From a virus: DNA of 26,125 nucleotides. Below the pieces are notes generated by a model, which worked only from the letters and a program-made list of their open reading frames with translations, ran no database searches and was not told where the DNA came from. Below, piece by piece: positions 3,859-24,630 of the stretch. The position numbers were made by a program, and so were the translations under genes. The stretch spans positions 1 to 26,125 of the IMG/VR virus record IMGVR_UViG_3300027797_000121, one strand, 5' to 3'. Numbering within the stretch: position 1 is the first letter of the stretch; each line of letters opens with the position of its first letter.

Positions 3859-4335
3859 TTAATTGCCTTGAATTATTGAAGTAAGTTCATCTGCGGTAGC
3901 CGCATTCATAACTCTATTCATTAAATCTTGGGCTTTGTCAGGGGTCGTACCAAGTTGAGTAACTACATCCTGTTGCCTTAAGGCTGCACGATTTAGTTCC
4001 TGTTCCTCAGTTGCCGCTGGCTCTTTGGTTAATCCAAACAAATCGCCATTTTCGTCAAGCCAGGTATTAACTGACTCTTCACTAATGTCTTCTAAGTCTT
4101 TAAGGATTAATCTTTGTGCCTTTGGATTGACACCCTTCTTGTCTAGGACCTCTTTGACTACACGCTCACGCTGCGACTTGGATAATCCCTCAAGTTGCTC
4201 AGTAAGTTCCTTAATACGCTTTTCATCGTTACGCTTGGCTTTCCGCAATTTTTTAAGTAAATCGCTTCCGTCCATCTGTGTCTCGTTGTCGGTATCTTGG
4301 TCGTCTTCGTCTTCATCCCAGTAGTTGTTGCTCAT
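3859..4335 (-). CDS. Putative capsid scaffolding protein
   Basis: This is a 158 aa, highly charged protein with an acidic head (DEDEDDQDTDNET, residues 7-19) and a coiled-coil segment (about 22-60, LLKKLRKAKRNDEKRIKELT). Helical segments follow to the C-terminus. Size, acidic/coiled-coil composition and its position immediately upstream of the major capsid gene are typical of phage scaffolds. These guide shell assembly and then leave the head. The start has an upstream purine-rich AAGGGTGGG. The gap before it (4336-4458) holds a structured RNA. No protease signature is present in the protein. Confidence 0.75.
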   Translation of the reverse strand: MSNNYWDEDEDDQDTDNETQMDGSDLLKKLRKAKRNDEKRIKELTEQLEGLSKSQRERVVKEVLDKKGVNPKAQRLILKDLEDISEESVNTWLDENGDLFGLTKEPAATEEQELNRAALRQQDVVTQLGTTPDKAQDLMNRVMNAATADELTSIIQGN

Positions 4336-4368
4336 AGCAACCCACCCTTCTATTCGTTTAGTTTAGTC

Positions 4369-4450
4369 GCAAGCCACAGGTTCCAATCGGGGAATCGGTC
4401 TGGCTCTTGCTACCAGTCTTTTACGCTGTGTGGGCTGGTAGGTCACACAG
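4369..4450 (-). promoter_or_regulatory. Structured RNA: H-type pseudoknot plus bulged hairpin before the scaffold gene
   Basis: On the minus-strand RNA, CUGUGUG (4450-4444) can pair with CACACAG (4432-4426), and CUACCAG (4441-4435) can pair with CUGGUAG (4416-4410). The pairs interleave, giving an H-type pseudoknot with two perfect 7 bp stems and loops of 2, 2 and 9 nt; the 9 nt loop is A-rich. Next to it, GCAAGAGCCA (4410-4401) pairs with TGGCTTGC (4376-4369) except for a 2 nt bulge. The knot begins 8 nt after the TAA of the preceding gene. Roles in translation control of scaffold/capsid or in stop-codon readthrough are possible. Confidence 0.65.
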
Positions 4451-4458
4451 GATTCTAT

Positions 4459-5742
4459 TTAGTACTGTCCCGCTGAGGAGTTTAGAGAAGTCTTAGTTAT
4501 TCCAAGTTTTCCACTTCCAGAAAATTGTGCTTTTTCAGCAGAAACAAGTTTTTCTCTTTTACGCTTTGCTGATGCTAGTTGTTGAAATACTTCTTCTTCT
4601 CCTGTTTGTTGGTTATAACCATCCATTACGTTTCCGTATATGTCACTAAGTTTATTAGCAGTTGGTAATATATCTGCAATTGCTGAGTAACCTTCTTTTG
4701 CTTTTTCTTGAGTAATACCAGTTGTTGCTAAGTATTCAGCATAACCTACTCCAGGAGCACTCAAACCTTGTCTAGATGCCGCGTTACCAATTTCTGCAGC
4801 AGTAATACGTTTTTCAATTTCTGATGTTTGACCACTAGGGTCTAAAGCATATGCAATTAAATCAGTATTATTAAGACCATAATAATTTCTAAGTGTTGTA
4901 GAAACGCCTGGGTCAGCATTCATAATTCGTTGCGATGCCATTTGAACTCTATTATTTAATTCTGTTGATGACATATCGTTGGCAATGAATTGACTAACAT
5001 ATTCATCGGTATCAAACACCTTTAAACCATACGCTCTTAAAACTTGGCGATAAGAATCCTCAACACCAAGGTAATCCCTAGGTGATAGAACTGCTAATCC
5101 TTTTCCTATTCTAGTCTGATTAGCCTTAAATCTTTCTTTGTATGCTTCTGTTTCCTGCAAAGCAAATGTAATGGTTGCTTCGCTAGCACCTTCTAAAACT
5201 AATTTTCTAACTACTTCAACTAAACTTCCTAAACCATATTCAGTATATCTTTGTGCTAAAACATCAAAAGCATTTTTACGTTCTGCAGCAGCAGCCTGTG
5301 TTTCCGCAAGTGTTGCTACTTCTTCTGGAGTTTGTGTTGGGGCTGTATAAGTTGGAGCACCCTCACCATAAGAACTAATATTAGTGCCCCCAGTGTCTGG
5401 TATATCTGGGTCAACTGGTGGCTCTACTGGCTCTACTGGCTCTACTGGCTTTACTGGTTCCGTTGGCTTTACTGTTGGATTTGCCTTAAAGTAAGCATCT
5501 GCTTGTGCTTGCATTCTTTCGGCTGTAATTTTTGTTTGATAGGCTTGTTGATTTGGTGTTAAAGGTACTTTAAAATCTTTAGCAATTGCTGCTGAACTAT
5601 AAATTTTTTGAGGGTTTATTGCACCCGCAGGTATAGAAGTTCCCTTGTTTGATTGAGAAACGGTAGGTTGAACAAGTTTTGTACCTGAGGCTGCCTGTCC
5701 GCCACCTTTAGGTAATGCTCCTGTTGGTTTTTTAACTGCCAT
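4459..5742 (-). CDS. 427 aa virion-region protein with Pro/Glu/Val repeat linker
   Basis: I do not recognise a family. The N-terminal ~90 residues are low complexity (G, A, K, T, Q). A proline repeat (KPTEPVKPVEPVEPVEPP, about 95-112) works as a stiff linker. Residues about 135-400 are mostly helical, with clusters such as VRKLVLEGASEATITFALQE and the tail KRKREKLVSAEKAQF. The repeat is made of tandem 12-base units at 5410-5460. The start overlaps the upstream stop by one base (TAATG). It lies between the giant virion-like protein and the scaffold gene, which suggests an internal head or ejection protein. The TAA stop is followed 8 nt later by a pseudoknot, and the frame stays open for 31 more codons to 4366. 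Confidence 0.65.
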   Translation of the reverse strand: MAVKKPTGALPKGGGQAASGTKLVQPTVSQSNKGTSIPAGAINPQKIYSSAAIAKDFKVPLTPNQQAYQTKITAERMQAQADAYFKANPTVKPTEPVKPVEPVEPVEPPVDPDIPDTGGTNISSYGEGAPTYTAPTQTPEEVATLAETQAAAAERKNAFDVLAQRYTEYGLGSLVEVVRKLVLEGASEATITFALQETEAYKERFKANQTRIGKGLAVLSPRDYLGVEDSYRQVLRAYGLKVFDTDEYVSQFIANDMSSTELNNRVQMASQRIMNADPGVSTTLRNYYGLNNTDLIAYALDPSGQTSEIEKRITAAEIGNAASRQGLSAPGVGYAEYLATTGITQEKAKEGYSAIADILPTANKLSDIYGNVMDGYNQQTGEEEVFQQLASAKRKREKLVSAEKAQFSGSGKLGITKTSLNSSAGQY

Positions 5743-7374: not shown

Positions 7375-10300
7375 TTACTCCCTAACATATTTGAAATCAT
7401 CATTATCAAAATACCTGTCATAAAACTTACCAAAATTAATATCATTACTTCTTAAGTTTAAAACATAATCATCAACTTCGTTACGTATATCATATGCTCT
7501 ATCTGAAGTAAGTGAAATCCCACCACGACTATCTAATTTATCTTTTATGTAGAATCTAAAGTTTAGATAATCAATAATGCTATGCCATCTTGCTTGTTTT
7601 GATAAATCAGCCCAAAGTTTTTCGTTATTTGCAGCAATGGTTAAATTATCTACAACATTTTTAAGACTTGCATTGGTGTCTCTATCTTGTTTTTCTTCCC
7701 ACCAAATTTGATTGTCTGTTTTCATCTTCTCTATAAATGATTTTTTATATGAGTCTAGGACGGATTTTCCGTAACCACTTGTTGGGCTATATGGAGGATT
7801 GTTCTGTAATAGCATCCCTGAGACTACTTCTTTAAGTTGAGTCCAGTTATTCCAACCTTCGTTAACTAATGAAGAGCGAGCATTCTCTAAAGCGGTTTGG
7901 CTGCCAGTCCATAAATCCTTAGTCCCAGGTATGGTATTAGTTTGTAACCATGCTTGAGCAGAACTTGAGAACGCATAATTCTCATCATTAAAAACAGCAC
8001 CTAAGGTTCTTAAATCTTTGTCAGTACCCATTGCTATAACCATCTCAGTAACAATGTCTGAATTCTTTTTAACTAATTCTTGAGATGTTTTATCTGGATA
8101 GATACCTGATGTTGCATCGGTTAATTTGTCGACTATCATAAAATAATCTGGATAGTCTTCTAAGAATTTTTGAGTTCCTTCTGGTCCACCTAGATTTTCT
8201 TGATACATTCTAAGTTTATCAGAATAAACCTGCAATGGTGAAACGTATCTAGGTTGTTGAGGCAATAAGCCTGAACCAAGGAATCTAATCCAAGCCATAT
8301 ACTTGGCTTCTTTTCCAGATTCTTTTTGTATTATAGCAAAATCTTTTTCGTTTACAAAACGGTCATTATCTTGTTTGAATTCAAATATCTTGTTTTCCAT
8401 TATCATGGCGGTATCTTTATTTAATTGTTCAGAATTACCTTTAAACCATGCTGACCATGCTTGACCTAATCTTCTTACTGTTGTTGGTTCAAGGACAGCA
8501 AGAGAATTCTTTTGAACTCCAAATGGAAGGATAGCATTTTGCATCCATTCTTCTAGTTCAATATTGGTTTCTTTAAGAAGTTGATTTGTAACGGCTGCTA
8601 CATAAGGACTTGTAGAAAATATATTTCCACCTGTTGGATTAAATGGATTAAACCAATCGGTAGACAATCTTGCTTTAATGTTATCTCCAAGAAATGGCAA
8701 AGTTACTTCTACATACTCTTGACCATTAGGGTCAACTTGAACTTCATTCAGTCTTGAGGGAATAGACCTCATCTGCATGGTCTTTAAAATAAATTCTGGA
8801 TTCTCAGATATCAATCTGCCATAAACTTTGTATTGTTCTACTATTGCAGGAAAAAATGCAATAAGGTAATTCATGGCTTCAGGATAGTTTGAATCTCTAC
8901 TAAAAGCGTTTAATTTGCCTCTAAGTTCTTTTAAGGCATATGAATGTGCATTAGCGTGATATGCTTCCATGTTTAATTTACTTGGAATTATACCCTGAGC
9001 ATTTGCTACCGCAACCATGCTTTGTAATTTTTGTTGGTAAGATACGGCATAGTATGGGTTATAGGCTAATTTAGCAGGTGCCCAAGTAGATAAAGAACTT
9101 ACCCAATTTTTCATTACGCTATTAACTTTTAACAACCCTGAACTTTGACCTAATAAATCTAGAGCCATATCGGTAACTATTTCAGGACGTACTTCAACAT
9201 TAGGATACATTTTTTCTAATGTAAGGGCATTAACCTTACCTTCAACAACAAGTTTTTGTAACGCTATGTCTTTTCCAGTAAATTGGTTAACTGCGGTTGC
9301 TATTCTATCGTAAACTGTTTCAACATCAACAGAACGAGGGCTACGACCTAGGCTGGGCATAAAACCAAAACTATCTAATTTTGTTCTATACTCTATAGAT
9401 TTCATGTATTTAAGAATCTCTTTTTTAGAGGTTCCCTGCATTATCTTTACAGCAACTGGGTCAGAAGGTAAAACGTTAACTAAAATATTTTCCCAGGACC
9501 TTAAATGTAAATCTTTGTTTTCTCGCGTTGGCTTGATAAGGTGTCCACCTTCTCTATCACGCCTAATTGCCGCTAATTCTAATTCATTGTTAGATGTCAA
9601 TAAACCACGCAAGTCATCTTTTCCTGTAATTTTTTGCATAGTTATTTTGCCATAGACGCCATCACGATAATCTACAAAAGCGTAATCGGAAATCATGAGT
9701 GGTTTCCTACTAACAATTTTGTTAGGAATATTTGATACTAAACTTTGTTTTCGTTGTTCTAAGGCTGTTACATTATTCTTTACAATATTGTACCAGTCTA
9801 AAGTTCTTTGGACTTCAGGTTTAATCTTTTTAGGAGGCTTATTAAAATTATAACCAAAGTTCCTTAAACTTTGTTCTACTTCGCTTAATACTTTAATGCG
9901 AAGGTCTAATTCTTTACTAGTTCGTTTTAGATTGTAACTTCTGTCAGTTACAATTTTAGTCCAACGATTAATTTTTCCAACAGAATTATTACGATTGGTA
10001 AAATCTTCAAATGTTTGTTTTCCAAATTCTTTTACAACATTAAAGTATTGGCCATCGGCAGCAATACGTAATACGTTATCTCGCATAATGTTTTGTGGGT
10101 AACCAGCACGAAATAAAGTAAGGTTTCTCCAAATGGCATTATACTCGTCACCGAAATGTTTTGCAACATAGTAGGCGGTTTTAATTCCGCCGTGATTTTT
10201 ATTTTGGTGTCTAGCAAATTCTGCAAAGGCTTTATCTAAAACAGCAATATCGGGTAGATAACTACCGTTTGCAAGTTGGCTTACTAATACTGGGTCTGCA

Positions 10301-12312
10301 ACAGCGTCTCCAGTTTTAGGGTCACGCATGTAAGCCCTATTTTCGCTCTTAGCATCAGCCGCTAATTTTCTATTTTCTTTTACTTTTGCAAAATATGTTT
10401 TTATTACATATTCTATTTGTGATTCAGGAATTCCGTGTTTAATGGCAATTCTTTCAAAAATTGTTTTAGTAAAATCTTCAACATATTTTAATTTTTCACC
10501 TTCAAAACGAGTGCCTAAAAATTTATTATATAAATCTTGAACTTCATCTTGTTTTAAGATTCCGTTTTTTACGCCTTCTCTAATAGTTGTACGCATTCTA
10601 GTACTAGATTGAAGCGGGTCATTAAAATTAATTGTGCTATGCGGAGCATCATCGGTCCATCTTTCAACAGCACGTATTACAGGTCCAAAAGTTCCACCCT
10701 GGTATATTCTTTGTGTGACTTTACCACCAAGAGTTTCTCTTGAAGTTAAATCAGTTTTATTAATACCTAATTTGTTTGCAATTCTTTGTTTAGCAATATC
10801 ATTTTTTCTTTTTTCAATTATTGGGAAAATTGAAACAGTTCTTTCCTGCAAAGCGCTATCTAACCTTAATGTTTTTGCAAGGTCGGCATTCTTTCCAGTT
10901 AATTCTTTTAATTCGCCTTCAAGAATTTCTTTTCTATTTTGTAAAGATTTTTTAATGTATTTATTACTTGATGTTGCTGGAAGACTTTTTAATTCAAATT
11001 GATTTAATTTAGATTCTGACCTAAGCAATTGAGCAAAAGTGGATTTATGTTTTGTTGCTAACTCTTCAATAGCCTTTACATCTCCACGACCAACTCTAAA
11101 CAATAGAGCAATTTCAGAATATGATTTACCAGCCATCAATTGAGAAGCCATGTATGAGATTTCGCCACCTAATTGGAACTCTGTGCGCAAACCTACAGTT
11201 GCTGCGTCATTTTTACTGATAAACTCAAACATTGGGGTATAAACTGTTTTTTCACCAGCAGCGGTTCTATTTAATAAATCAACATCTGCTTGCAATCTGT
11301 TTTTAATTTTTTCAGGTGTATCAACTAATTTTTGTATTGCCCCGCCGACCATAGTCTGTTTTGCTGTTGATACTCCACCAATTGTTGCAACTCTGGCAAC
11401 TTTACCAAGAAGTTGAACACCTTTTATGTCTGGCGATGTTGGAAATTCATATGCTATATTAAGGAGCCCAGAAACAACTGCACCAATACCAGTGTCTGTA
11501 TTTTGTAATTCCTTAGAACCGCTGATTCTTCCAGCAGCCTTAGTGGCATCCCTGCCAAAGTTATACATTTCTTGACCTTGTACTGATTGAGCAAACAAGG
11601 CAGAATTTTGAAACTGTGTACCAAGTGCTCCAGTCTCAGATGTTGCTCTTAATGCTTTTCCTCCACCGTAAAATCCTAATACCGCAGCAGTACCTGCAAG
11701 AAAACCAGCAGCATTACCTATTCCCGGTACAACAGAGCCAGCAGCCGTAGCAGCGGCTATAGTACCGACTCCAGCAGCAATTGCTCCGCCAATTTGTGCA
11801 AGACCAGTAAGTAAACCAAAAGATGCATTGGTTTCTAAATTTGCTCTTAAAAATGAATAGTTTGAACGAACACCTTTTGTAGCAGTCATGAGAGCATGGT
11901 TTACTTTACCACCAGATGCTTTATCTAATTGACCAAGTCCATACATAGATGCACCTAAAGCAGCACCTGCTGCCATACCCGCTGGGCCAAAAAATCTACC
12001 TACTACCGCAGCGCCACCAATTGATTTTGCTGGGCTTTGAAGAACTTGTTGTGCAAAATCTAATGTTGCTTCTCTTTTTTTCTCAACATTTTGATTCCAT
12101 ACAGGATTTAAACTAGAGTCATTAATAACTTCTTGTCCCGCTTGGTTAGCAGAAGCATAAGTTCCAGGGTACTTAGGTATATTTGCAGCAATGTCAGAGG
12201 CAAGACCATAATTAACATAACCTTGATTATTATATACTGGTTGTGCAATTTGTTGTCCATCTTTATGCCAGAATATATTTTGTAAATTTGCTATTCTGTC
12301 CCAAAGACTCAT
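7375..12312 (-). CDS. Giant 1645 aa virion-like protein, putative internal/ejection protein
   Basis: The frame is open to 12405, but the first good start is ATG 12312, forming an ATGA overlap with the stop of the upstream 160 aa gene; the product begins MSLWDRIANLQNIFW. Residues about 97-125, 165-195 and 197-220 are Gly/Ala-rich and hydrophobic (for example GGAIAAGVGTIAAATAAGS), the look of membrane-inserting glycine-zipper helices. The rest is a long, helical, charged protein. Near residue 700 a segment has the pattern W.NLTLFRAGYPQNIMRDN, resembling large virion or polyvalent proteins of actinobacterial phages. No transglycosylase or protease motif was found. Size, hydrophobic head and position suggest an internal protein ejected with DNA, in the manner of T7 gp16, but a different fold is likely. 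Confident as a gene, tentative in role. Confidence 0.7.
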   Translation of the reverse strand: MSLWDRIANLQNIFWHKDGQQIAQPVYNNQGYVNYGLASDIAANIPKYPGTYASANQAGQEVINDSSLNPVWNQNVEKKREATLDFAQQVLQSPAKSIGGAAVVGRFFGPAGMAAGAALGASMYGLGQLDKASGGKVNHALMTATKGVRSNYSFLRANLETNASFGLLTGLAQIGGAIAAGVGTIAAATAAGSVVPGIGNAAGFLAGTAAVLGFYGGGKALRATSETGALGTQFQNSALFAQSVQGQEMYNFGRDATKAAGRISGSKELQNTDTGIGAVVSGLLNIAYEFPTSPDIKGVQLLGKVARVATIGGVSTAKQTMVGGAIQKLVDTPEKIKNRLQADVDLLNRTAAGEKTVYTPMFEFISKNDAATVGLRTEFQLGGEISYMASQLMAGKSYSEIALLFRVGRGDVKAIEELATKHKSTFAQLLRSESKLNQFELKSLPATSSNKYIKKSLQNRKEILEGELKELTGKNADLAKTLRLDSALQERTVSIFPIIEKRKNDIAKQRIANKLGINKTDLTSRETLGGKVTQRIYQGGTFGPVIRAVERWTDDAPHSTINFNDPLQSSTRMRTTIREGVKNGILKQDEVQDLYNKFLGTRFEGEKLKYVEDFTKTIFERIAIKHGIPESQIEYVIKTYFAKVKENRKLAADAKSENRAYMRDPKTGDAVADPVLVSQLANGSYLPDIAVLDKAFAEFARHQNKNHGGIKTAYYVAKHFGDEYNAIWRNLTLFRAGYPQNIMRDNVLRIAADGQYFNVVKEFGKQTFEDFTNRNNSVGKINRWTKIVTDRSYNLKRTSKELDLRIKVLSEVEQSLRNFGYNFNKPPKKIKPEVQRTLDWYNIVKNNVTALEQRKQSLVSNIPNKIVSRKPLMISDYAFVDYRDGVYGKITMQKITGKDDLRGLLTSNNELELAAIRRDREGGHLIKPTRENKDLHLRSWENILVNVLPSDPVAVKIMQGTSKKEILKYMKSIEYRTKLDSFGFMPSLGRSPRSVDVETVYDRIATAVNQFTGKDIALQKLVVEGKVNALTLEKMYPNVEVRPEIVTDMALDLLGQSSGLLKVNSVMKNWVSSLSTWAPAKLAYNPYYAVSYQQKLQSMVAVANAQGIIPSKLNMEAYHANAHSYALKELRGKLNAFSRDSNYPEAMNYLIAFFPAIVEQYKVYGRLISENPEFILKTMQMRSIPSRLNEVQVDPNGQEYVEVTLPFLGDNIKARLSTDWFNPFNPTGGNIFSTSPYVAAVTNQLLKETNIELEEWMQNAILPFGVQKNSLAVLEPTTVRRLGQAWSAWFKGNSEQLNKDTAMIMENKIFEFKQDNDRFVNEKDFAIIQKESGKEAKYMAWIRFLGSGLLPQQPRYVSPLQVYSDKLRMYQENLGGPEGTQKFLEDYPDYFMIVDKLTDATSGIYPDKTSQELVKKNSDIVTEMVIAMGTDKDLRTLGAVFNDENYAFSSSAQAWLQTNTIPGTKDLWTGSQTALENARSSLVNEGWNNWTQLKEVVSGMLLQNNPPYSPTSGYGKSVLDSYKKSFIEKMKTDNQIWWEEKQDRDTNASLKNVVDNLTIAANNEKLWADLSKQARWHSIIDYLNFRFYIKDKLDSRGGISLTSDRAYDIRNEVDDYVLNLRSNDINFGKFYDRYFDNDDFKYVRE

Positions 12313-12791
12313 ATTATATTTTGCTCTCCGCTTGACGCTGTGTATTGGGTAAGGTAGTTTGTATATTCTGCTGTAGCCCGCGAAGTTCCAGGCATACTTG
12401 CCCATGTTTGCATAAGAGGTAATTGTTGACGAATCATTTCAATGTCTGGGTCCGCAGAAGGATTACTAGGTAAATTAGGAACATAATTTAATCCCTTACC
12501 AACTGCTGCGCCATCTGTTACAGGTGTGTTAGGTTCTTGAGTTTCATCTAAAATTGATGTTAATGCTGGAGGATTATATGATGTTTCTGCCGCTGCACTA
12601 GTATTCATTGAAGCAATTGCAGCATTTCCTGTTTCTCTGTTTTCATTAATTGTTTTATTTTGACCATAGGTAAACCCACTATAATCACCACTAGTTCCAT
12701 TGCCACCTGCACCATTAACATTAGCAGGATTATTTTGTGGAGCATTTGGTTGGTATCCGCCACGTGTTTCTGGTGAATTCATTGACGACAT
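12309..12791 (-). CDS. 160 aa Asn/Gly/Pro-rich protein
   Basis: The first ~100 residues are low complexity (N, G, P, T, S, A). The C-terminal 45 residues are more ordered, with DPDIEMIRQQLPLMQTWASM followed by a helix. A strong Shine-Dalgarno (GGAGGATAAA) precedes ATG 12791, 9 bases after the upstream stop. Its stop overlaps the start of the giant protein gene (ATGA), which points to translational coupling. Function unknown; it may be a small partner or chaperone for the giant protein. Confidence 0.65.
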   Translation of the reverse strand: MSSMNSPETRGGYQPNAPQNNPANVNGAGGNGTSGDYSGFTYGQNKTINENRETGNAAIASMNTSAAAETSYNPPALTSILDETQEPNTPVTDGAAVGKGLNYVPNLPSNPSADPDIEMIRQQLPLMQTWASMPGTSRATAEYTNYLTQYTASSGEQNII

Positions 12792-12800
12792 TTTATCCTC

Positions 12801-13343
12801 CTACTTAATTTTTCTAGGTTGTTCTTTTGATATATAAGGACCTGCAGTAAATGCAGTAAGTTTAGATGCTATTTCCATTGCTTCAAATGCATCTGCTCCT
12901 GCATACAATGCACCAAGTGCGTATGAGGCTCCAGAACCTGCAGCGTATACTCCGTCTGCAGACTTGCTTATTGATAACTCTTGGTCAATATCAAATATTT
13001 CTCCACCAACAGCCATTATAAACTGGAAGCGACTTTCTTTACTATCTTCTTCAAAATTATAACCATTTGCTGCCATACATTTACGCAAAGATGGCATTGC
13101 CTTTACAATCATAAAATGATAAAGGTCTTCTTTGTCTTGCTTAGTAGGAGTTGGTGGCTCCCAAATATGTTGAGTTATATCACACGGTAATGTTTCTCCA
13201 GAACCAGCAATTAAAAACATTCCATTTTCAGAAATCTTTTTAACTTCAGGGTGTGTATAAATTCTACCATCAGCATCAGTTGTTTGGCTATCAACAACTA
13301 TGAAGCAACGGTCTTTATGTTCTAAACCTATAATTGTTGTCAT
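12801..13343 (-). CDS. Proteasome/HslV-like Ntn hydrolase in the capsid module
   Basis: This 180 aa protein matches the proteasome beta-subunit/HslV layout. It starts MTTIIGLEHKDRCFIVVDSQ, so removing Met exposes Thr1 as the nucleophile. D18 (VVDS) and K35/K36 (HPEVKKIS) fall where Asp17 and Lys33 are expected. AAGSGASYALGALYAG at 134-149 matches the conserved GSG region of HslV. The C-terminal AFTAGPYISKE strand also fits. Its length is close to HslV. It lies directly after the portal gene, a place where phages usually encode the head maturation protease, and no classical prohead protease is seen in the window. It could process head proteins or degrade host proteins; the first is inferred from position. 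Confidence 0.82.
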   Translation of the reverse strand: MTTIIGLEHKDRCFIVVDSQTTDADGRIYTHPEVKKISENGMFLIAGSGETLPCDITQHIWEPPTPTKQDKEDLYHFMIVKAMPSLRKCMAANGYNFEEDSKESRFQFIMAVGGEIFDIDQELSISKSADGVYAAGSGASYALGALYAGADAFEAMEIASKLTAFTAGPYISKEQPRKIK

Positions 13344-13357
13344 TGTCCCCTACTTTT

Positions 13358-15124
13358 TTATCTACGTCTTACACTTCTAACGCTTGCTGATGCTTTTCCT
13401 GAACCTGTTAGTCCAGAAATTAAACTCATAACATCTTGTTCTTGTTGCTGTGGCATTGGAGAAGGAGAGCCTCCTACTGGACCACCAAGGGGAGCAGGGG
13501 ACGTTTGCTCAACCGTTGGATTAGGGGCACCAGCAGGAGGGACCTGTTGTTGCGGTGCAAAGGTAGCCTCAATAGCATCTTCTAATGCTTGTCCCTTTTG
13601 GCGAGCCTTGATTACCGCAGCAATTTTATTTACCATTTCTGACGGGTCTTGTCCCTGTGTTGCCATCGCTGGTATAGCCTGAGCCATTGCTGTAATACCA
13701 CTGAGTAATGCTGTACGCATATCCTCAATTTCAATTTTTTCAAGTTCTTGTGTTACGTTAACAGTAAATGGCAACTCACGCATAGCCATATCTTTAGATA
13801 TTAATTTACCACCAAGAGCCTGTAACATAAAGATAAGACCTTGGGCTGGATTAAGACCAGCAAGCATACCGTATCTAACATCGGCTGAATAGTCATTTTT
13901 AATATCTTTAGTTGGCTTGTAAGTAATTTCATATGGAGAACCAGAGTCTACACCACGAATTGTTTTTTCTTCAGGGTAAATAACTTCATCAACCTCAAAA
14001 CAAAGACCAATTACATCACGAAGTGCTGCAGCAAAAATTGCTTGTGCTGATTTAACCTGTGTGTCAAAGGCTCCCATAAGAGCCTGCACACCTTGACCAG
14101 TAACAATAGAAGCATCAATGTTTCCAGTTCTTGATTCTGGATAACGAGTTCCTACTCTTAACTCTTGGTTAAGAACATTCTGTTCTGTAAATGCACCTTG
14201 TGGTAGGGTAAGTTCTACTCGACGAACACCTGCTGGGTTGGCGGTGCGGATAACCGCATCTCCACCCAGTTGTAATTCTTGTACATCTTGTGGAAGTACA
14301 ATAGGTGCCTGTACTGATTTCTCCGCTGCTTCCATTGCCAATAAGGCGAAACGGTTGCGGAGTAACTGAATTCCAAGTACATCGTCAAACTGTCCACGCA
14401 TCTCACCATCAATAGATGGTTTACGTGCGACAACAACCATTAGTTTACCTAATGGATTATTTGCTTGTGATAAAATTAAATCTTGTTTTGTAGGTACATA
14501 AATAACTGATTGGTCTTTATCGTAATAACGAATCATTTCTATCTGAGCATTTAAATCTTGTTTATAACCTAGTCCACCTAAAAGTTGATATTCGTGTTCT
14601 GGGAACTGGCTTACTAACTCACCTAAGGTAAGTACATATCTTTTAGCAAAAGCAATACAACGACCATAACGGTCAAAATCTGGATAAGAACCAATTGGAT
14701 TTTCTAAACGAATACGAGGTAGTTTTATTTCATCATCTAATTCAATTACAAATGGAACAAAGCCGTAAGTTAGATACCAGTCTGCTCCTTGATACATCTG
14801 GACCGATAGGTCAGAGTTCGAGAAATAATTACTAGCAATACGAGTACGCTTATCGGCAAAAGTACGAGCACGGTCAGAGACCTGATTAGCGGCCGAGCAG
14901 TTAACTGCTGGAAGAGGCGCCATAACTTCTGAAAGGTCCCTGGCAACGATATCAATAAAATTTGCCACGACATTAGCATCTACTCCTTCTGGAAAAAAGT
15001 TAGGGTAGACTTCAGCAATCTTACCTCTACGCACAGCAAGTACGTCAAGGTTGCGACCATCACGCTCTGTGCTTCTATAGCGTAAAGATTGAACTCTTGC
15101 TGCTATTTGTTGGATATCTAACAC
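13358..15124 (-). CDS. Portal protein
   Basis: The 588 aa product forms the DNA entry ring at one head vertex. It has typical portal features. An N-terminal segment contains QIAARVQSLRYRSTERDGR. A middle domain contains NYFSNSDLSVQMYQGADWYLTYG, followed by strands with LENPIGSYPDFDRYGR. A long helical region follows, and the C-terminal tail is Pro/Gln-rich (about 520-565) and ends SVRSVRRR. Length is normal for a portal. The GTG start at 15124 overlaps the upstream stop (TAGTG). It lies between terminase and the capsid genes, the expected order. Call based on position, size and general pattern. Confidence 0.85.
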   Translation of the reverse strand: MLDIQQIAARVQSLRYRSTERDGRNLDVLAVRRGKIAEVYPNFFPEGVDANVVANFIDIVARDLSEVMAPLPAVNCSAANQVSDRARTFADKRTRIASNYFSNSDLSVQMYQGADWYLTYGFVPFVIELDDEIKLPRIRLENPIGSYPDFDRYGRCIAFAKRYVLTLGELVSQFPEHEYQLLGGLGYKQDLNAQIEMIRYYDKDQSVIYVPTKQDLILSQANNPLGKLMVVVARKPSIDGEMRGQFDDVLGIQLLRNRFALLAMEAAEKSVQAPIVLPQDVQELQLGGDAVIRTANPAGVRRVELTLPQGAFTEQNVLNQELRVGTRYPESRTGNIDASIVTGQGVQALMGAFDTQVKSAQAIFAAALRDVIGLCFEVDEVIYPEEKTIRGVDSGSPYEITYKPTKDIKNDYSADVRYGMLAGLNPAQGLIFMLQALGGKLISKDMAMRELPFTVNVTQELEKIEIEDMRTALLSGITAMAQAIPAMATQGQDPSEMVNKIAAVIKARQKGQALEDAIEATFAPQQQVPPAGAPNPTVEQTSPAPLGGPVGGSPSPMPQQQEQDVMSLISGLTGSGKASASVRSVRRR

Positions 15125-15426
15125 TATTTAATCCTTGGTTTTTGTAATTTTAATTTTTCTTTTGCTGCTCTACTAGCAATTTCTGTAGGAGTTGGCTTAG
15201 GTGGTAATCCCATAGCGGCTCTAGCCTTTGCAGCACCTTCTGCATTAATCTGTACCTGACTTTTTACTACTTTAACTGAATTTTTTTGAATAGCATCTGT
15301 TTGATTTCTATAAACTGGATTAACGGTTTTAGCACCCCTACCAGTAATACCAGCAACTGCTCTTGTGGTAAGTTTCTTTGCAACTGCTCTAGCAGCAATA
15401 CCTGCTGCAATTATTGGTAGTGGCAT
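15124..15426 (-). CDS. 100 aa basic protein between terminase and portal
   Basis: The N-terminus is mildly hydrophobic (MPLPIIAAGIAARAVAKKL). The rest is basic and Ala/Lys-rich with VNPVYRNQTDAIQKNSVKV and a proline segment (MGLPPKPTPTE) before a terminal charged helix. No family recognised. It lies 9 bases after the terminase stop and overlaps the portal start by one base, so it is part of the packaging operon. It could be an accessory packaging or head protein. Confidence 0.6.
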   Translation of the reverse strand: MPLPIIAAGIAARAVAKKLTTRAVAGITGRGAKTVNPVYRNQTDAIQKNSVKVVKSQVQINAEGAAKARAAMGLPPKPTPTEIASRAAKEKLKLQKPRIK

Positions 15427-15435
15427 TTTATCTCC

Positions 15436-17304
15436 CTAGTTATAAGTTTCTTGCCATTGCTCTGCAAAGGCTTCATCTAAATTAATTCCGTATCTTTTAC
15501 TCTGTTGCGCTCTGGTAGCCCACCTATTATTTTGGTAGTTACCAACCTTGCTTGACTTTTGCATTAATTCTCTACAGCGTATTATAGCAAACCATAAAGC
15601 CATTACACAGTCGGTTGGGTTCTTAGTATCAGGTTTCCAAATAATTAACTGCTGCACCAAAGACTTAAGTCCTTCAGAGCCTTCATTAGAAGGTAGTTCT
15701 AATATGTTGTTGTCTTGGAATCTACCATCATGCACGGTGCCAAATAGGCTAGCCATAGAGGCAACACCAAAACCAACGTCCCACTTATTCTTGCCAGTAA
15801 AATGCGAATTAAGTTGACAGCCATAGGTTGCTAGGTAGTCTCTAAGTTCTGAGTCCATAGCATAGTACTTTTGGTGGGCGTTAATCTCAACCCTAAACTC
15901 TTGTGGTCTAAACTTCTCTACCCATTCTTTAATAAGAGCATTCTCTTTTTGTGGGGTAGGGTCAACCATGTTAACACAGTCTAAAACATATATACGGCTA
16001 TCAGCACGATTATAAGATACAGCCACAAAGGCTGACCTTCCAGTTACCGCAGGGTCAAAACCAATAATAGTATAAAGTGAATCTACGTTCTTTGGGTGTC
16101 CTGGCGTTTCTGATTTAAGAGGTCCACGCTTTCGCATACCGTTAACACATCCTGCGACAATTGTTGGCGAGAATATGGAATCGGATTGGACGTCTTCTTG
16201 CTGGTAGACCATAGCCCAGACTGACGGAGCAACTTCAGACCGCCTTGTAAAAAGCGAGGGTCCATCCCACTTGGGGTATAGTCCTTGCTCATTAGGTTGG
16301 TCCTGTTCTCCTTCTGCTCTATCTGTCCAAGGCCAGAGTGTTTTCCAGTTCTTGGGGTCTTCATCAAATTCTAATACGGCTGGCATAGCCATGTATGTGA
16401 ATGGAGTCTTGCCACCTGTCCATTGGTCAGGGTCTCTAATCATTTTATATAAATCAATAGGCGCGACACGGGTTCCTACTATAAGCAGTTTTCCATGTCG
16501 CCCTAGGCGGGTGATAACTTCTTTTTGAAGCCATTCAATTTGCTTCTCCCACTCATGGGCATTTGCGTTCATCACCACATCATCAAGGATAATCAGGTCG
16601 GCGCGAGCACCGTAAATCTGGGAACCAAATCCTAAGGCTTGCACCGTAGGGTCTTTCTCTCCAGAGTCTCTTCCTGCTCCTAGATAAATCATGTCGGCTG
16701 ACCAAGTTGGCGAGTCTGCTTTGTAGCCACCGTTAGGTCCAAAAGACACTTGCATCTTGGTCCAGTTAGGGTGGCTTAATCTTGTCTTAATCGCAGATAG
16801 GAACTTACGAGCCATACCTTGCGTCTTTGATACAATAATGATTCTAACGTTAGGGTCTATAGATAACCGATAGGTAACGTAGTTGATGGTAAGTACTGTG
16901 GACTTAGCATGCTCTGGTGGTACGTTAATAAGAATACGATTAGTTGCTGCTTGCTCATAAGTCATACTAGGGTGGATAGACCTTGGTTCTTTACCCTCTA
17001 TTAAATCAATCCAAGTCTTATGATGGTCGAATAACTTAGTCTCTAGGAATTGCTCACTAAAGTCTTCAAAGGATATATCTTTTAGATTGGCAAGGTCTGC
17101 TTTGATACCTTTGCCTGAAAGGCGGGCTTTGTCCGCTTTGTCTTTAAAGTCTGGGTCTGCCATAGACCATTGCCGGAAGGTAGTATCGTTTCTGCCTACG
17201 GCTTTCATAGCGTCTATTACGCTAGCCCCTTGGGCTAACAGTTCTAGTACTTGGGGTTGGGCGCTATCTTTAGGGATGTTCTGTACACCTGGTTTACGAC
17301 CCAA
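15436..17304 (-). CDS. terL: Terminase large subunit with N-terminal HTH region
   Basis: This 622 aa protein packages DNA into the head. Residues 128-136 (VPPEHAKST) form a variant Walker A and DLIILDD (236-242) a Walker B for the ATPase. The nuclease domain shows IIGFDPAVTG with D417, RVEIN with E473 and D565 (TDCVMALWFA), the usual RNase H-like acidic triad. Residues about 15-62 (LLAQGASVIDAMKAVGRND, then FRQW and ADPDFKDKADKAR) look like the HTH of terminase small subunits fused at the N-terminus. No separate small subunit gene is visible. The start is TTG 17304, supported by AGGGGG 5 bases upstream. Confidence 0.92.
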   Translation of the reverse strand: MGRKPGVQNIPKDSAQPQVLELLAQGASVIDAMKAVGRNDTTFRQWSMADPDFKDKADKARLSGKGIKADLANLKDISFEDFSEQFLETKLFDHHKTWIDLIEGKEPRSIHPSMTYEQAATNRILINVPPEHAKSTVLTINYVTYRLSIDPNVRIIIVSKTQGMARKFLSAIKTRLSHPNWTKMQVSFGPNGGYKADSPTWSADMIYLGAGRDSGEKDPTVQALGFGSQIYGARADLIILDDVVMNANAHEWEKQIEWLQKEVITRLGRHGKLLIVGTRVAPIDLYKMIRDPDQWTGGKTPFTYMAMPAVLEFDEDPKNWKTLWPWTDRAEGEQDQPNEQGLYPKWDGPSLFTRRSEVAPSVWAMVYQQEDVQSDSIFSPTIVAGCVNGMRKRGPLKSETPGHPKNVDSLYTIIGFDPAVTGRSAFVAVSYNRADSRIYVLDCVNMVDPTPQKENALIKEWVEKFRPQEFRVEINAHQKYYAMDSELRDYLATYGCQLNSHFTGKNKWDVGFGVASMASLFGTVHDGRFQDNNILELPSNEGSEGLKSLVQQLIIWKPDTKNPTDCVMALWFAIIRCRELMQKSSKVGNYQNNRWATRAQQSKRYGINLDEAFAEQWQETYN

Positions 17305-19710: not shown

Positions 19711-20943
19711 ATGGAAACTGTTGATGAAGTAGAAGTCAAGTGTTGTATCGCTTGCAATACTGAATTAAATAGTGATGATGACGGCACTACTACTAGTAGC
19801 GGAGACCCTGTCTGTGAAAGTTGTATGATAATGTGTATCAAATGTGAGAGTGTTATCACAGTTGATGATGAATACAATGATGTAGAGGGTGAGTTATGGT
19901 GTCGAACATGTACTCGTGATGAGGCTATTTGGTGTGATGTGTGCGATAACTATTTTACTGGTTATTCATACACCGCAGATGATAGTAGTGATACTATGTG
20001 TGAACAATGCTTTGAGAATAACACTTCTTACTGTGAGGAGTGTGATACTAATTATGTAAATGGTTGCGAATATAACCATGAAGATGAAGATGATAGCAGG
20101 ATTATACATGATTATTCGTATAGACCTGACCCTATCTTTCATAGTTCAGAGGATGAGCAGACACGCTTATACTTTGGCATAGAAGTAGAAACAGAAACAC
20201 GAGGTGGCGATTATAACGATAGGAGAAACGCTGCCGAGTATGCAGTTAAACTAGAGAGGCAAGACCTAGCCTATCTCAAATCTGACGGCTCACTAAATTG
20301 TGGGTTCGAAATAGTAACTCATCCATTATCCCATAGTTACTTTATGAATGATGCTAGTTCTCTATGGGATACTATAGAAACACTTAAGAATAATTATAGT
20401 ATGATGGCATGGGGTACAAAAACTTGTGGACTTCATATCCATATATCTCGTAATGGGTTTAGTGGTGGTTCACACCAGCATAGATTCTTACAGTTAGTGT
20501 ACAACAACAAGGACTTCTACGAAGTGCTTGCTGGTAGGTCATCTAGTCATTGGGCTAAGTTTGATGATGTACTTGACCCTATGACTGGTAAGAAAACCTT
20601 TGCACACAAGTTGAATAGAAATCATAGAGATAGCGACAGATACTCTGCCGTCAATACCAACAACAGAAACACACTAGAGATGAGAATCTTTAGAGGTAGT
20701 CTGAACACTAGATTCATCAAGTCATGTATAGACTTAGCGCATGCCAGCGTTGAGTTCACAAGAGTGATGAGTGTTCCCGAGGTCAGGGGGCACAAGTTAG
20801 ATTGTATTAACCTAATACAATATATCCGAGAGAGAGTAGAGTTATATCCTTCTCTCAATCAAAGATTAAATGGTATGTCCAATGTGATAGATAAAATAGA
20901 GAGGAAAGAATATGTGCCTATTGGTAGTAAGTTCCCCGAATAG
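19711..20943 (+). CDS. Amidoligase-family enzyme with N-terminal zinc-binding CxxC region
   Basis: The 410 aa product has two parts. Residues 1-125 hold seven CxxC pairs (C12/C15, C35/C38, C42/C45, C64/C67, C75/C78, C97/C100, C108/C111), like LIM or tandem zinc-ribbon modules. From about 150 on comes the glutamine-synthetase-like COOH-NH2 ligase (Amidoligase_2) pattern: FGIEVETE, SDGS (191-194), CGFEIVTHP (197-205), CGLHIHIS with H242/H244, and N318, E323, R325 in TNNRNTLEMRIFRG. Such enzymes join a carboxylate to an amine with ATP. The next gene is a glutamine amidotransferase that could supply ammonia. The substrate (peptide, cell-wall or DNA precursor) is unknown. A palindrome precedes the start. 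Confidence 0.85.
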   Translation: METVDEVEVKCCIACNTELNSDDDGTTTSSGDPVCESCMIMCIKCESVITVDDEYNDVEGELWCRTCTRDEAIWCDVCDNYFTGYSYTADDSSDTMCEQCFENNTSYCEECDTNYVNGCEYNHEDEDDSRIIHDYSYRPDPIFHSSEDEQTRLYFGIEVETETRGGDYNDRRNAAEYAVKLERQDLAYLKSDGSLNCGFEIVTHPLSHSYFMNDASSLWDTIETLKNNYSMMAWGTKTCGLHIHISRNGFSGGSHQHRFLQLVYNNKDFYEVLAGRSSSHWAKFDDVLDPMTGKKTFAHKLNRNHRDSDRYSAVNTNNRNTLEMRIFRGSLNTRFIKSCIDLAHASVEFTRVMSVPEVRGHKLDCINLIQYIRERVELYPSLNQRLNGMSNVIDKIERKEYVPIGSKFPE

Positions 20944-21733
20944 TACACCCAAGCGTAAAGACCTAGAGTGTGCTTCGTGTAATAATCCGCATGGCTTTGG
21001 CTATGCTGTAATTGCTGGTAATAAAATTATTACTGGCAAGGGTATGTCTGCTAAGAAAATAATCAAAGAGTTCTTAGCGGTGCGTAAGCAATACCCAAAT
21101 AGTTATGCTATGTATCATGCTAGATTTGCTACGCATGGTGTTAAGAATGATGATAACTGTCATCCATTCCAAGTGGGTGGTAGCGACATGACTTACTTAG
21201 CACACAATGGTATTCTTAGTGTGGATATCCCTGCTAATGATAAGCGTAGTGATACGCGTATCTTTGCTGATGATATTCTACCTGCTATGGGTGGTGTCAA
21301 AGCATTAGATGATGTCAATCTATACAGTATGCTAGAAGGCTGGTCTGCTGGTAACAAGATTGCTATATTTACCCTAGACCCTGTGGCTATGTATGATTGC
21401 TACATTATCAACGAGGACTTAGGTCATTGGGATAATGATGGTAACTGGTGGTCTAATGAAACCTACAAGGCTACTGCTTGGAGTACTCTCTTTAAGAGAG
21501 GTAATGATTACTATGACTTAGAGGATATAGGTGGTAGTGAAGATGATTGCATGTGTTATGGGTGTGGTGTACCTAGACTAAGTGATGATAATCCATATTA
21601 TTGCTTTGATTGTGGTACATGTTATGATTGTAGCATGGTCAAAGATGATGGTTGCCTATGCTGGACACCTGAACGGGAGAAATCCGTCCAACACAAACCA
21701 ATATATGACGGACAATATGACTTTGGCTTCTAA
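20912..21733 (+). CDS. Class II glutamine amidotransferase with C-terminal zinc knuckles
   Basis: The 273 aa product begins MCLLVV, so Cys2 becomes the N-terminal nucleophile of an Ntn amidotransferase. Further family marks are GFGYAV, HARFATHG (69-76), NCHPF (82-86) and AHNG (97-100), which shape the glutamine pocket. Residues 213-250 carry C213, C215, C218, C231, C234, C237, C240, C248 and C250, a compact metal-binding knot. It overlaps the amidoligase gene by 32 bases, with GAGGAAAG just before ATG 20912. It probably releases ammonia from glutamine for that ligase. The shared zinc modules suggest the two form a complex. A CCAACACAAAC site lies near its 3' end. Confidence 0.85.
   Translation: MCLLVVSSPNSTPKRKDLECASCNNPHGFGYAVIAGNKIITGKGMSAKKIIKEFLAVRKQYPNSYAMYHARFATHGVKNDDNCHPFQVGGSDMTYLAHNGILSVDIPANDKRSDTRIFADDILPAMGGVKALDDVNLYSMLEGWSAGNKIAIFTLDPVAMYDCYIINEDLGHWDNDGNWWSNETYKATAWSTLFKRGNDYYDLEDIGGSEDDCMCYGCGVPRLSDDNPYYCFDCGTCYDCSMVKDDGCLCWTPEREKSVQHKPIYDGQYDFGF
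21684..21699 (+). repeat. CCAACACAAAC motif inside GATase gene
   Basis: The string TCCGTCCAACACAAAC is identical to 19609-19624. It lies 66 bases before the palindrome at 21754. Confidence 0.7.
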
Positions 21734-22026: not shown

Positions 22027-22172
22027 TGGAACTAGAAAAAGATGCAATATGGGCAGCAACAATAAATAAGACTGATATAGGAAATATGGATGAAGCCATG
22101 ATTAATAGAATGATTGTGGAGTTAAATGTAACCTTCCAAAAGATATGTTGGGACTATGGAATACACAACTAG
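22026..22172 (+). CDS. 48 aa helical protein
   Basis: ATG 22026 overlaps the preceding TAA (TAATG), and the frame ends at TAG 22172. The product is MELEKDAIWAATINKTDIGN followed by MDEAMINRMIVELNVTFQKI and CWDYGIHN. It looks like two helices. Its end overlaps the WhiB-like start by 17 bases. The overlaps support translation. Function unknown. Confidence 0.6.
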   Translation: MELEKDAIWAATINKTDIGNMDEAMINRMIVELNVTFQKICWDYGIHN

Positions 22173-22590
22173 ACCTGCTGCAGTTAATCTAACTCATTCT
22201 GTATTCAATTATAAATCTGATGATAAAGAGTTAGACTTAAGCAAGGGGTCATGCGTTGGAAGTGATGACCCTGATATGTGGTTCGCTGGTGAAGTAGACA
22301 TAACTGAACTTAGTAGTTCTGTTAATGGTAGTTCACAAGTAATCAAACTAGAAGTAGATAAGGCTATCAAAGCACTATCTATATGTAAGAACTGTCCCGT
22401 TAAAGATGATTGCTTAGAACTAGGCAAGCATGGTCAGCAACTATACTTCGGTATATATGGTGGCACTATGCCAGGAGAGAGGTTGGCTATGGTTGGTAGG
22501 CTCACAAAGAACTCTATTATCAGACAGAAAGCAAGGTTTGCCATCAAGGTTAGAGATACTATGACAGAAAGGGGGATAGAATGGAGATAA
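22156..22590 (+). CDS. WhiB-like transcription regulator
   Basis: The 144 aa protein has the four cysteines that hold a 4Fe-4S cluster in WhiB proteins: C33 (GSCVGSDDPDMWF), C77 and C80 (SICKNCP) and C86 (DDCLELG). It also has the G[I/V]xGG turn as FGIYGG (98-103), and PGER and a basic C-terminus suited to DNA contact. WhiB proteins act with the primary sigma factor at promoters and occur only in Actinobacteria and their phages. An insert of about 30 residues lies between the first and second cysteines. It overlaps both neighbours. It may control host or phage promoters; binding to the palindromes nearby is untested. Confidence 0.9.
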   Translation: MEYTTRPAAVNLTHSVFNYKSDDKELDLSKGSCVGSDDPDMWFAGEVDITELSSSVNGSSQVIKLEVDKAIKALSICKNCPVKDDCLELGKHGQQLYFGIYGGTMPGERLAMVGRLTKNSIIRQKARFAIKVRDTMTERGIEWR

Positions 22591-23889: not shown

Positions 23890-24630
23890 CTAAGTCAGTT
23901 CGTCCTCATCAGTATTCTTGTCCCTATCATTGTCTTCGGGGTAGTTGTCGGACTCTACAACTTTGTCTGGACTCTCAGTCTCTTCGTTTCGAGAATCTCT
24001 ATCTGACCAAGGTCGGAATCCACCGATTCTAGTTATGAGTTTCTTAACAGCACGATTATGGCGCATACGAGCAGCATCTTCGCTACCTAAATTCATCTCA
24101 GTAGCGACATCGCCATAGTCCATAGATTCAGCGTATCTGTAAAATAGTACCGTCCTATCCTCGGTGCTAAGTTTACGGTACGCTTTATCTATTTCAATCA
24201 TCATTACCATCATATTGCCGCCTTCGGCAGGGGCAGGTGGCTTACTCGGACCAACTAGATTTAACTTATGCGACACACCAAACTCACCCCGTAAAACTGA
24301 GGGTAAGAGTGCTTCAATTACATCTGATTCATAAAAGAATATATCTGAAGTTTCATAGCCAATAGATTTGGCTTTCCACTCTAAACAATAATCCAATGCA
24401 TCATTACGAAGGCTACGATAGATTAGATTTTTAGCATCTTTGTCACTTATTGCTTCCCATTCATTTAACTTATTGGGATGCTCAAGGAACCATTTGTATA
24501 ATGATTGTTTAATATCTTCCAACTCAACCATATCATATTTTCTATGGTACTCAGCAGCAACAGCAATTACTATGTAGTCCCATTTCTTTATGCGTTCCCA
24601 AGGGTAACGCTCAAGGTCTTTGTTTACCAC
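23890..24630 (-). CDS. Sigma-factor-like protein
   Basis: The 246 aa protein has two sigma-like parts. The N-terminal part (about 20-85, AVAAEYHRKYDMVELEDIKQ and a second helix pair with LIYRSLRNDALDY) resembles region 2. Residues 150-203 (AYRKLSTEDRTVLFYRYAES, DYGDVATEMNLGSEDAARMR, HNRAVKKLI) resemble the region 4 HTH that reads the -35 box. A linker lies between them. The last 40 residues are very acidic and lack a known role. GTG 24630 is used and overlaps the upstream gene by 7 bases. It may direct polymerase to phage promoters. Its stop is 5 bases from the converging operon's stop. Confidence 0.72.
   Translation of the reverse strand: MVNKDLERYPWERIKKWDYIVIAVAAEYHRKYDMVELEDIKQSLYKWFLEHPNKLNEWEAISDKDAKNLIYRSLRNDALDYCLEWKAKSIGYETSDIFFYESDVIEALLPSVLRGEFGVSHKLNLVGPSKPPAPAEGGNMMVMMIEIDKAYRKLSTEDRTVLFYRYAESMDYGDVATEMNLGSEDAARMRHNRAVKKLITRIGGFRPWSDRDSRNEETESPDKVVESDNYPEDNDRDKNTDEDELT

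Follow-up and report, generated by a model that had tools for sequence, protein, structure and literature searches.

Close behind the stop codon of one virion-module gene, and ahead of the scaffold gene that follows it, the DNA studied here encodes a predicted H-type RNA pseudoknot. Its position raises the question of whether it acts on the gene it follows or on the gene it precedes. The window, by which we mean the whole 26,125-nt stretch that was analyzed, is an IMG/VR fragment of an actinophage. We assign this origin because it carries genes for a WhiB-like regulator (22156-22590, + strand) and a sigma-70 region 4 protein (23890-24630, - strand), a pair that has been reported in the first cultured ‘Ca. 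Nanopelagicales’ (Planktophila) phages (PMC10202952). The gene order around the pseudoknot is phrog_8424 gene, leader element, phrog_7813 scaffold, major capsid (Table 1). Elsewhere in the window, an HslV-family peptidase (phrog_1040; 12801-13343, - strand), perhaps a prohead protease, adjoins the portal gene; an amidoligase (PF12224) adjoins a class-II glutamine amidotransferase-like gene (19711-21733, + strand), and the two are possible modification enzymes; and a small DUF6321 protein (571-861, - strand) neighbors a small ORF (861-1103).

Table 1. Features of the leader and its flanking genes, in transcript order; positions are those of the window.
Feature	Position	Strand	Evidence or remark
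Upstream virion-module gene, 427 aa, phrog_8424, function unassigned	4459..5742	-	TAA 8 nt before S1
S1 5' strand, CTGTGTG	4444..4450	-	7 S1 pairs with E=0 (R-scape-like test); all S1 pairs changed on both sides
S2 5' strand, CTACCAG, conserved core ACCAG	4435..4441	-	4 core pairs formed in 100% of 64 sequences; two S2 pairs with E=0
L2, CC, conserved, just 5' of the S1 3' strand	4433-4434	-	
S1 3' strand, CACACAG	4426..4432	-	Covariation with S1 5' strand
L3, CGTAAAAGA, conserved as [C/U]GUA..AAG[A/U]	4417..4425	-	98-99% conservation of the A and G that precede the final L3 base
S2 3' strand, CTGGTAG	4410..4416	-	Pairs with S2 5' strand; covariation
P3, irregular hairpin (GCAA/UUGC, GA bulge, GCC/GGC, AG/CU, variable apical stem)	4369..4410	-	7 P3 pairs with E=0, two more with E=0.017
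CCCC apical loop of P3, invariant	4389..4392	-	95-100% C in 87 matches (freshwater and Streptomyces phages, covariance-model hits)
Shine-Dalgarno (SD) of scaffold gene, AAGGGTGG; GGGAG or CUAGGAG in relatives	4342..4349	-	Leader comparison
Start-codon hairpin, GTTGCT-ATG-AGCAAC	4327..4341	-	Stem of at least 4 bp in most representatives; E 0.017-0.1
Scaffold gene, 158 aa, phrog_7813	3859..4335	-	Streptomyces phage Dennebes has a homologue labelled scaffolding protein
Major capsid protein gene, phrog_1357 major head protein, PF13252	2876..3820	-	Profile assignment

The pseudoknot occupies positions 4450-4410 of the minus strand, exactly where the initial annotation had placed it. Its loops measure 2, 2 and 9 nt, and the bulged hairpin that was also claimed does follow on its 3' side (4410-4369); base 4410 could pair in either S2 or P3. 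Scanning both strands, we found a single perfect 7+7 bp H-type pseudoknot with such loops in the window, compared with 0.03 per strand in dinucleotide shuffles, or about 0.06 expected per window. The window pseudoknot is far above chance. Nested folding of the leader misses it (z = -0.9), as expected for a structure that is a pseudoknot.

Two roles had been proposed for this structure, the first being stop-codon readthrough that would add a basic tail to the 427-aa protein. Taken alone, the window fits this reading: S1 begins 8 nt after the TAA and the frame stays open for 31 codons past it, both as originally described, and the readthrough pseudoknot of murine leukaemia virus (MLV) offers a parallel in its H-type fold and 8-nt spacing. 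Unlike in MLV, spacing, stop codon and downstream frame are all unconserved. In 60 relatives, the distance from stop to S1 is 4, 5, 8, 9, 12 or 14 nt, and the frame past the stop runs for 2-34 codons, in different frames; it is not kept open across relatives, an outcome that the initial annotation had itself named as counting against readthrough. The stop context is TAA-A in nearly all of them, TAG-A in four and TAA-G in one, and UAG-G is absent. In Streptomyces-type phages, moreover, a tRNA, and no ORF, abuts the pseudoknot upstream. We reject readthrough because of the variable spacing, the unconserved frame and the tRNA in place of an upstream ORF, and assign it a negligible probability.

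Related leaders were gathered by scaffold search, pattern scan, profile search and a capsid search seeded from Streptomyces phages. This gave 207 distinct leaders (53 after reduction) from freshwater actinophages, Streptomyces phages, Streptomyces genome contigs and actinobacterial prophages. The pattern scan returned one element per contig, 5' of the scaffold start wherever the contig extends that far, and the element lies directly 5' of that start in the freshwater phages, in the Streptomyces phages and genomes, and in most prophage matches. As the isolated Planktophila phages E7 and F5 (OX376640, OX376641) have it too, it is not an assembly artefact.

In total, the leader element spans about 125 nt, with the S1/S2 pseudoknot as its 5' half, followed by P3, the SD and, usually, the AUG hairpin. 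The common layout consists of S1, an L1 of 2-5 nt, S2, an L2 that is mostly CC, CA or C, and an L3 ending in AG[A/U] before the S2 3' strand; then comes P3, whose return strand reads GGC, whose bulge is GA-like and whose loop is a run of C; the SD and the start codon follow, so placed that the pseudoknot ends about 60-85 nt before the AUG. S1 is about 5-11 bp long in relatives, often with one bulge, and the outermost pairs of S2 vary around a conserved core of 4-5 bp. Our leader finder demanded both an L3 ending in AG[A/U] and a downstream CCC, and these traits are thus partly selected for, though they hold in the covariance-model matches as well.

Covariation in homologous phages, the check suggested in the initial annotation, proved to be strong. 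For 35 freshwater leaders in an unfitted MAFFT alignment, both members changed at 22 of 34 pairs; the covariation score was 0.371, compared with 0.162 in shuffles (0/500 as high). In 64 leaders aligned by a covariance model, and hence leaning to the structure, both-sided changes occur at 27/28 pairs and the score is 0.648 versus 0.184. Although the alignment model left out S2, all four core pairs of this helix form in 100% of the 64 sequences, three of them with both-sided changes; the predicted S2 helix covaries independently of the model. We also wrote our own R-scape-like test, in which 60 null alignments preserve the tree and E=0 means less than about 0.02. Column pairs at E=0 number 7 in S1, 7 in P3 and 2 in S2; two further P3 pairs and three AUG-hairpin pairs have E-values of 0.017-0.1, and the 21 best column pairs all lie within S1, S2, P3 or the AUG hairpin.

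A conserved non-coding stretch in a phage genome might also be a packaging, recombination or replication site that is read as DNA. Three properties argue instead that the element acts as RNA: its two interleaved helices show compensatory changes, G-U pairs are tolerated, and the linkage to the SD and AUG is strand-specific. We therefore disfavor a signal at the DNA level and consider it extremely improbable.

To what extent does the element occur beyond the phages in which it was found? A covariance model built from freshwater leaders only (R1) detects the Streptomyces-type elements, and only at the scaffold leader, with E-values, rough as they are, of 2e-6 (L306), 3e-5 (L370, S. himalayensis) and 3e-4 (L371, S. 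hoynatensis). The joint model R2 gave a single match in each of four individually searched genomes; among the 296 bacterial genomes of the class searched, four have R2 matches, one each. An exact core pattern scan of bacterial genomes found no element. Three of the matched sequences, L375, L377 and L378, are contigs of phages or prophages that keep the gene order seen in phages. The R2 match in L379/L380 lies in an actinobacterial genome region that also encodes a phrog_10618 homologue, a serine recombinase and a DNA/RNA non-specific endonuclease, and the gene 3' of this element is coiled-coil-like and not recognisably the usual scaffold. Coordinates of note in this region are L380:8426-8974 and 15047-16450. 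The window has a phrog_10618 protein of its own (1676 aa; 7375-12405, - strand), the homologue of which is near this odd genomic copy of the element.

We found no such element in L288, a gammaproteobacterial phage whose capsid protein is distant. Among Bacillus Pagevirus phages, the scaffold leaders of Pascal, Pony and Palmer (L287:1355-1447, L383:335-435, L384:299-435) have a conserved 3' block in common, and the stretch before that block is swapped: Pascal and Pony have H-type pseudoknots with different S1 helices, and Palmer has a different insert.

At the gathering threshold, the window and the Streptomyces-type leaders match nothing in Rfam except tRNA, and the leaders have no sequence match to known self-cleaving ribozyme classes. 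We found no earlier description of this leader in the open-access literature. Comparison of its relatives shows a new family of structured RNAs in actinophages. Its compact pseudoknot and hairpin, its conserved unpaired bases and the adjoining ribosome-binding site would suit a small-molecule riboswitch that governs expression of the capsid module. Nevertheless, it is found once per genome, in phage modules only and 5' of structural rather than metabolic genes, and Rfam riboswitches give no match even at permissive thresholds, so that we think a riboswitch improbable.

The 3' half of the leader brings the structure up to the ribosome-binding site. The SD is the only conserved G-run near the CCCC loop of P3, and pairing between the two is possible. 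A permutation test across leaders found no loop-SD complementarity overall above that of permuted pairs, and most freshwater phages could form just 3 bp between loop and SD; we therefore reject the idea that all leaders pair in this way. The base flanking the C-run does correspond to the base flanking the SD G-run (non-G matches 17:4 versus 1:7, p=0.0014), in a comparison that covers a minority of leaders and is not phylogeny-corrected. Likewise, CUAGGAG SDs occur together with CCCUAG loops in 7/7 cases versus 0/200 otherwise, which is essentially one clade. In the window's nested MFE fold the SD is sequestered by pseudoknot strands; we rejected this arrangement as a candidate mechanism, as it is not conserved among relatives.

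At the start codon itself, a stem of at least 4 bp flanks the AUG in 85% of the 53 representatives, compared with 9% of capsid-gene starts and 26% of shuffles, although the 85% does not amount to 53 independent observations because the bulk of the representatives are related freshwater phages. The stem differs by clade (GUUGC/GCAAC, GGUC/GACC, GGUUC/GAACC, UGCC/GGCA, GUCAC/GUGAC), and it is weak or absent in the Dennebes/Immanuel3/Manuel clade and in several other clades, several Streptomyces ones included. A hairpin that is kept at the AUG with clade-specific sequences ties the leader to translation initiation.

At the other end of the element, its 5' boundary coincides in some leaders with the end of a tRNA. 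An upstream tRNA was detected for 13 leaders (L280, L282, L283, L289, L292, L294, L298, L300, L306, L313, L316, L317, L320), and in each of them the tRNA 3' end adjoins S1 with essentially zero spacer, whichever of six tRNA types is present (Val, Met, Ile, Asn, Trp, Pro). Overlaps of 1-4 nt between tRNA and S1 arise because S1 can extend into CCA. The same junction occurs in the prophage L377 (1428-1501), where the tRNA ends at 1500 and the element starts at 1501. With S1 at a tRNA 3' end, processing could leave an mRNA that has the pseudoknot at its very start and a nearly blunt 5' end.

This boundary would also suit the main rival to translational control, in which the pseudoknot heads the processed scaffold-capsid mRNA as a 5' stability structure, blocks 5'-end-dependent decay (for example by RNase J) and so raises capsid yield, with translational control secondary or absent. 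A precedent for processing at such a place is the T4 gene 32 mRNA, which RNase E cuts at -71, beside a pseudoknot (PMC3014915). Yet tRNAs in arrays are generally packed with few or zero spacer bases, and such packing may be the simpler reading of the zero spacing. Furthermore, freshwater phages have no tRNA at that site, and stability alone leaves the conserved L3 bases, the GA bulge, the CCCC loop and the AUG hairpin unexplained. We regard a stabilizer in place of translational control as unlikely, though worth keeping in view.

The sharp boundary at tRNA 3' ends could also mean that tRNA processing frees the 5' end of an element that is then excised and works in trans, in a structural or motor capacity, like the pRNA of phi29. 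High conservation of the structure and the capsid genes that always adjoin it would agree with this, whereas the tight coupling to the scaffold SD and AUG and the lack of an Rfam family at the gathering threshold speak against it; we judge such an RNA quite improbable. We hold out equally slim prospects for a combined role, in which the leader would be freed as a discrete RNA and serve capsid assembly in a pRNA-like way in phages beyond the phi29 group, in addition to gating translation of the scaffold gene.

Collectively, these comparisons return us to the second proposal of the initial annotation, a cis element that controls scaffold and capsid translation. Its first part holds up, as position strongly suggests a role in cis at the scaffold mRNA, in agreement with covariation and conservation; the control of translation is what we infer, and we think that the leader probably does control translation of the scaffold-capsid mRNA. 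Most likely, judging from the sequence comparisons, it is a switch or stabilizer that sets the amount of scaffold and capsid protein. In the model we favor, the pseudoknot and P3, with their unpaired conserved bases (L3 GUA..AAGA, the GA bulge and the CCCC loop), would form a recognition platform, and the SD/AUG region with its own hairpin would be the controlled site. The leader would thereby control the initiation of scaffold translation and so also the ratio of scaffold to capsid protein. Our guess, by analogy, is that a protein is the most plausible ligand, with the scaffold or capsid protein as candidates. Autogenous feedback, in the manner of T4 gp32 on its own leader pseudoknot, is a tentative extension of this model that we put at somewhat less than even.

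Post-transcriptional feedback on scaffold expression has a precedent among tailed phages in the scaffolding protein of P22 (gp8). We know of no RNA element of this kind in P22, and found no relevant open-access paper on P22 scaffold autoregulation; here, by comparison, an RNA has been identified and feedback is hypothetical. The pRNA of phi29 is a phage RNA tied to capsid function. Unlike pRNA, the element described here sits inside the scaffold mRNA leader, and it has no Rfam match.

Pseudoknots at translational operators are found in other systems of autogenous control. One, mentioned in PMC3014915, is the operator of S15 (rpsO), from which our leader differs in that its pseudoknot ends about 60-85 nt 5' of the AUG, and another is the leader pseudoknot of gene 32 in T4, T2 and RB69 (PMC3014915). 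In our comparison, the leader would work most like that of T4 gene 32, as both have an H-type pseudoknot in a phage 5' leader before the ribosome-binding site, at or beside a processed mRNA end. We do not class it with the gene 32 type, however. The T4 leader has an unstructured, A+U-rich tract of UUAA(A) repeats between pseudoknot and ribosome-binding site, where ours has the P3 hairpin and lacks the repeats. No SSB gene follows; the leader precedes a scaffold/capsid operon in actinobacterial phages. Binding by the gene's own product, a feature of gene 32, is a candidate here, and the extra bulged hairpin with its CCCC loop and the usual AUG hairpin are unlike gene 32. The actinophage leaders constitute a second, much larger family of phage pseudoknot leaders, this one attached to capsid assembly and spanning abundant freshwater actinobacterial phages and culturable Streptomyces phages. 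They offer a concrete RNA, testable in laboratory strains of Streptomyces, for asking how tailed phages match scaffold to capsid synthesis.
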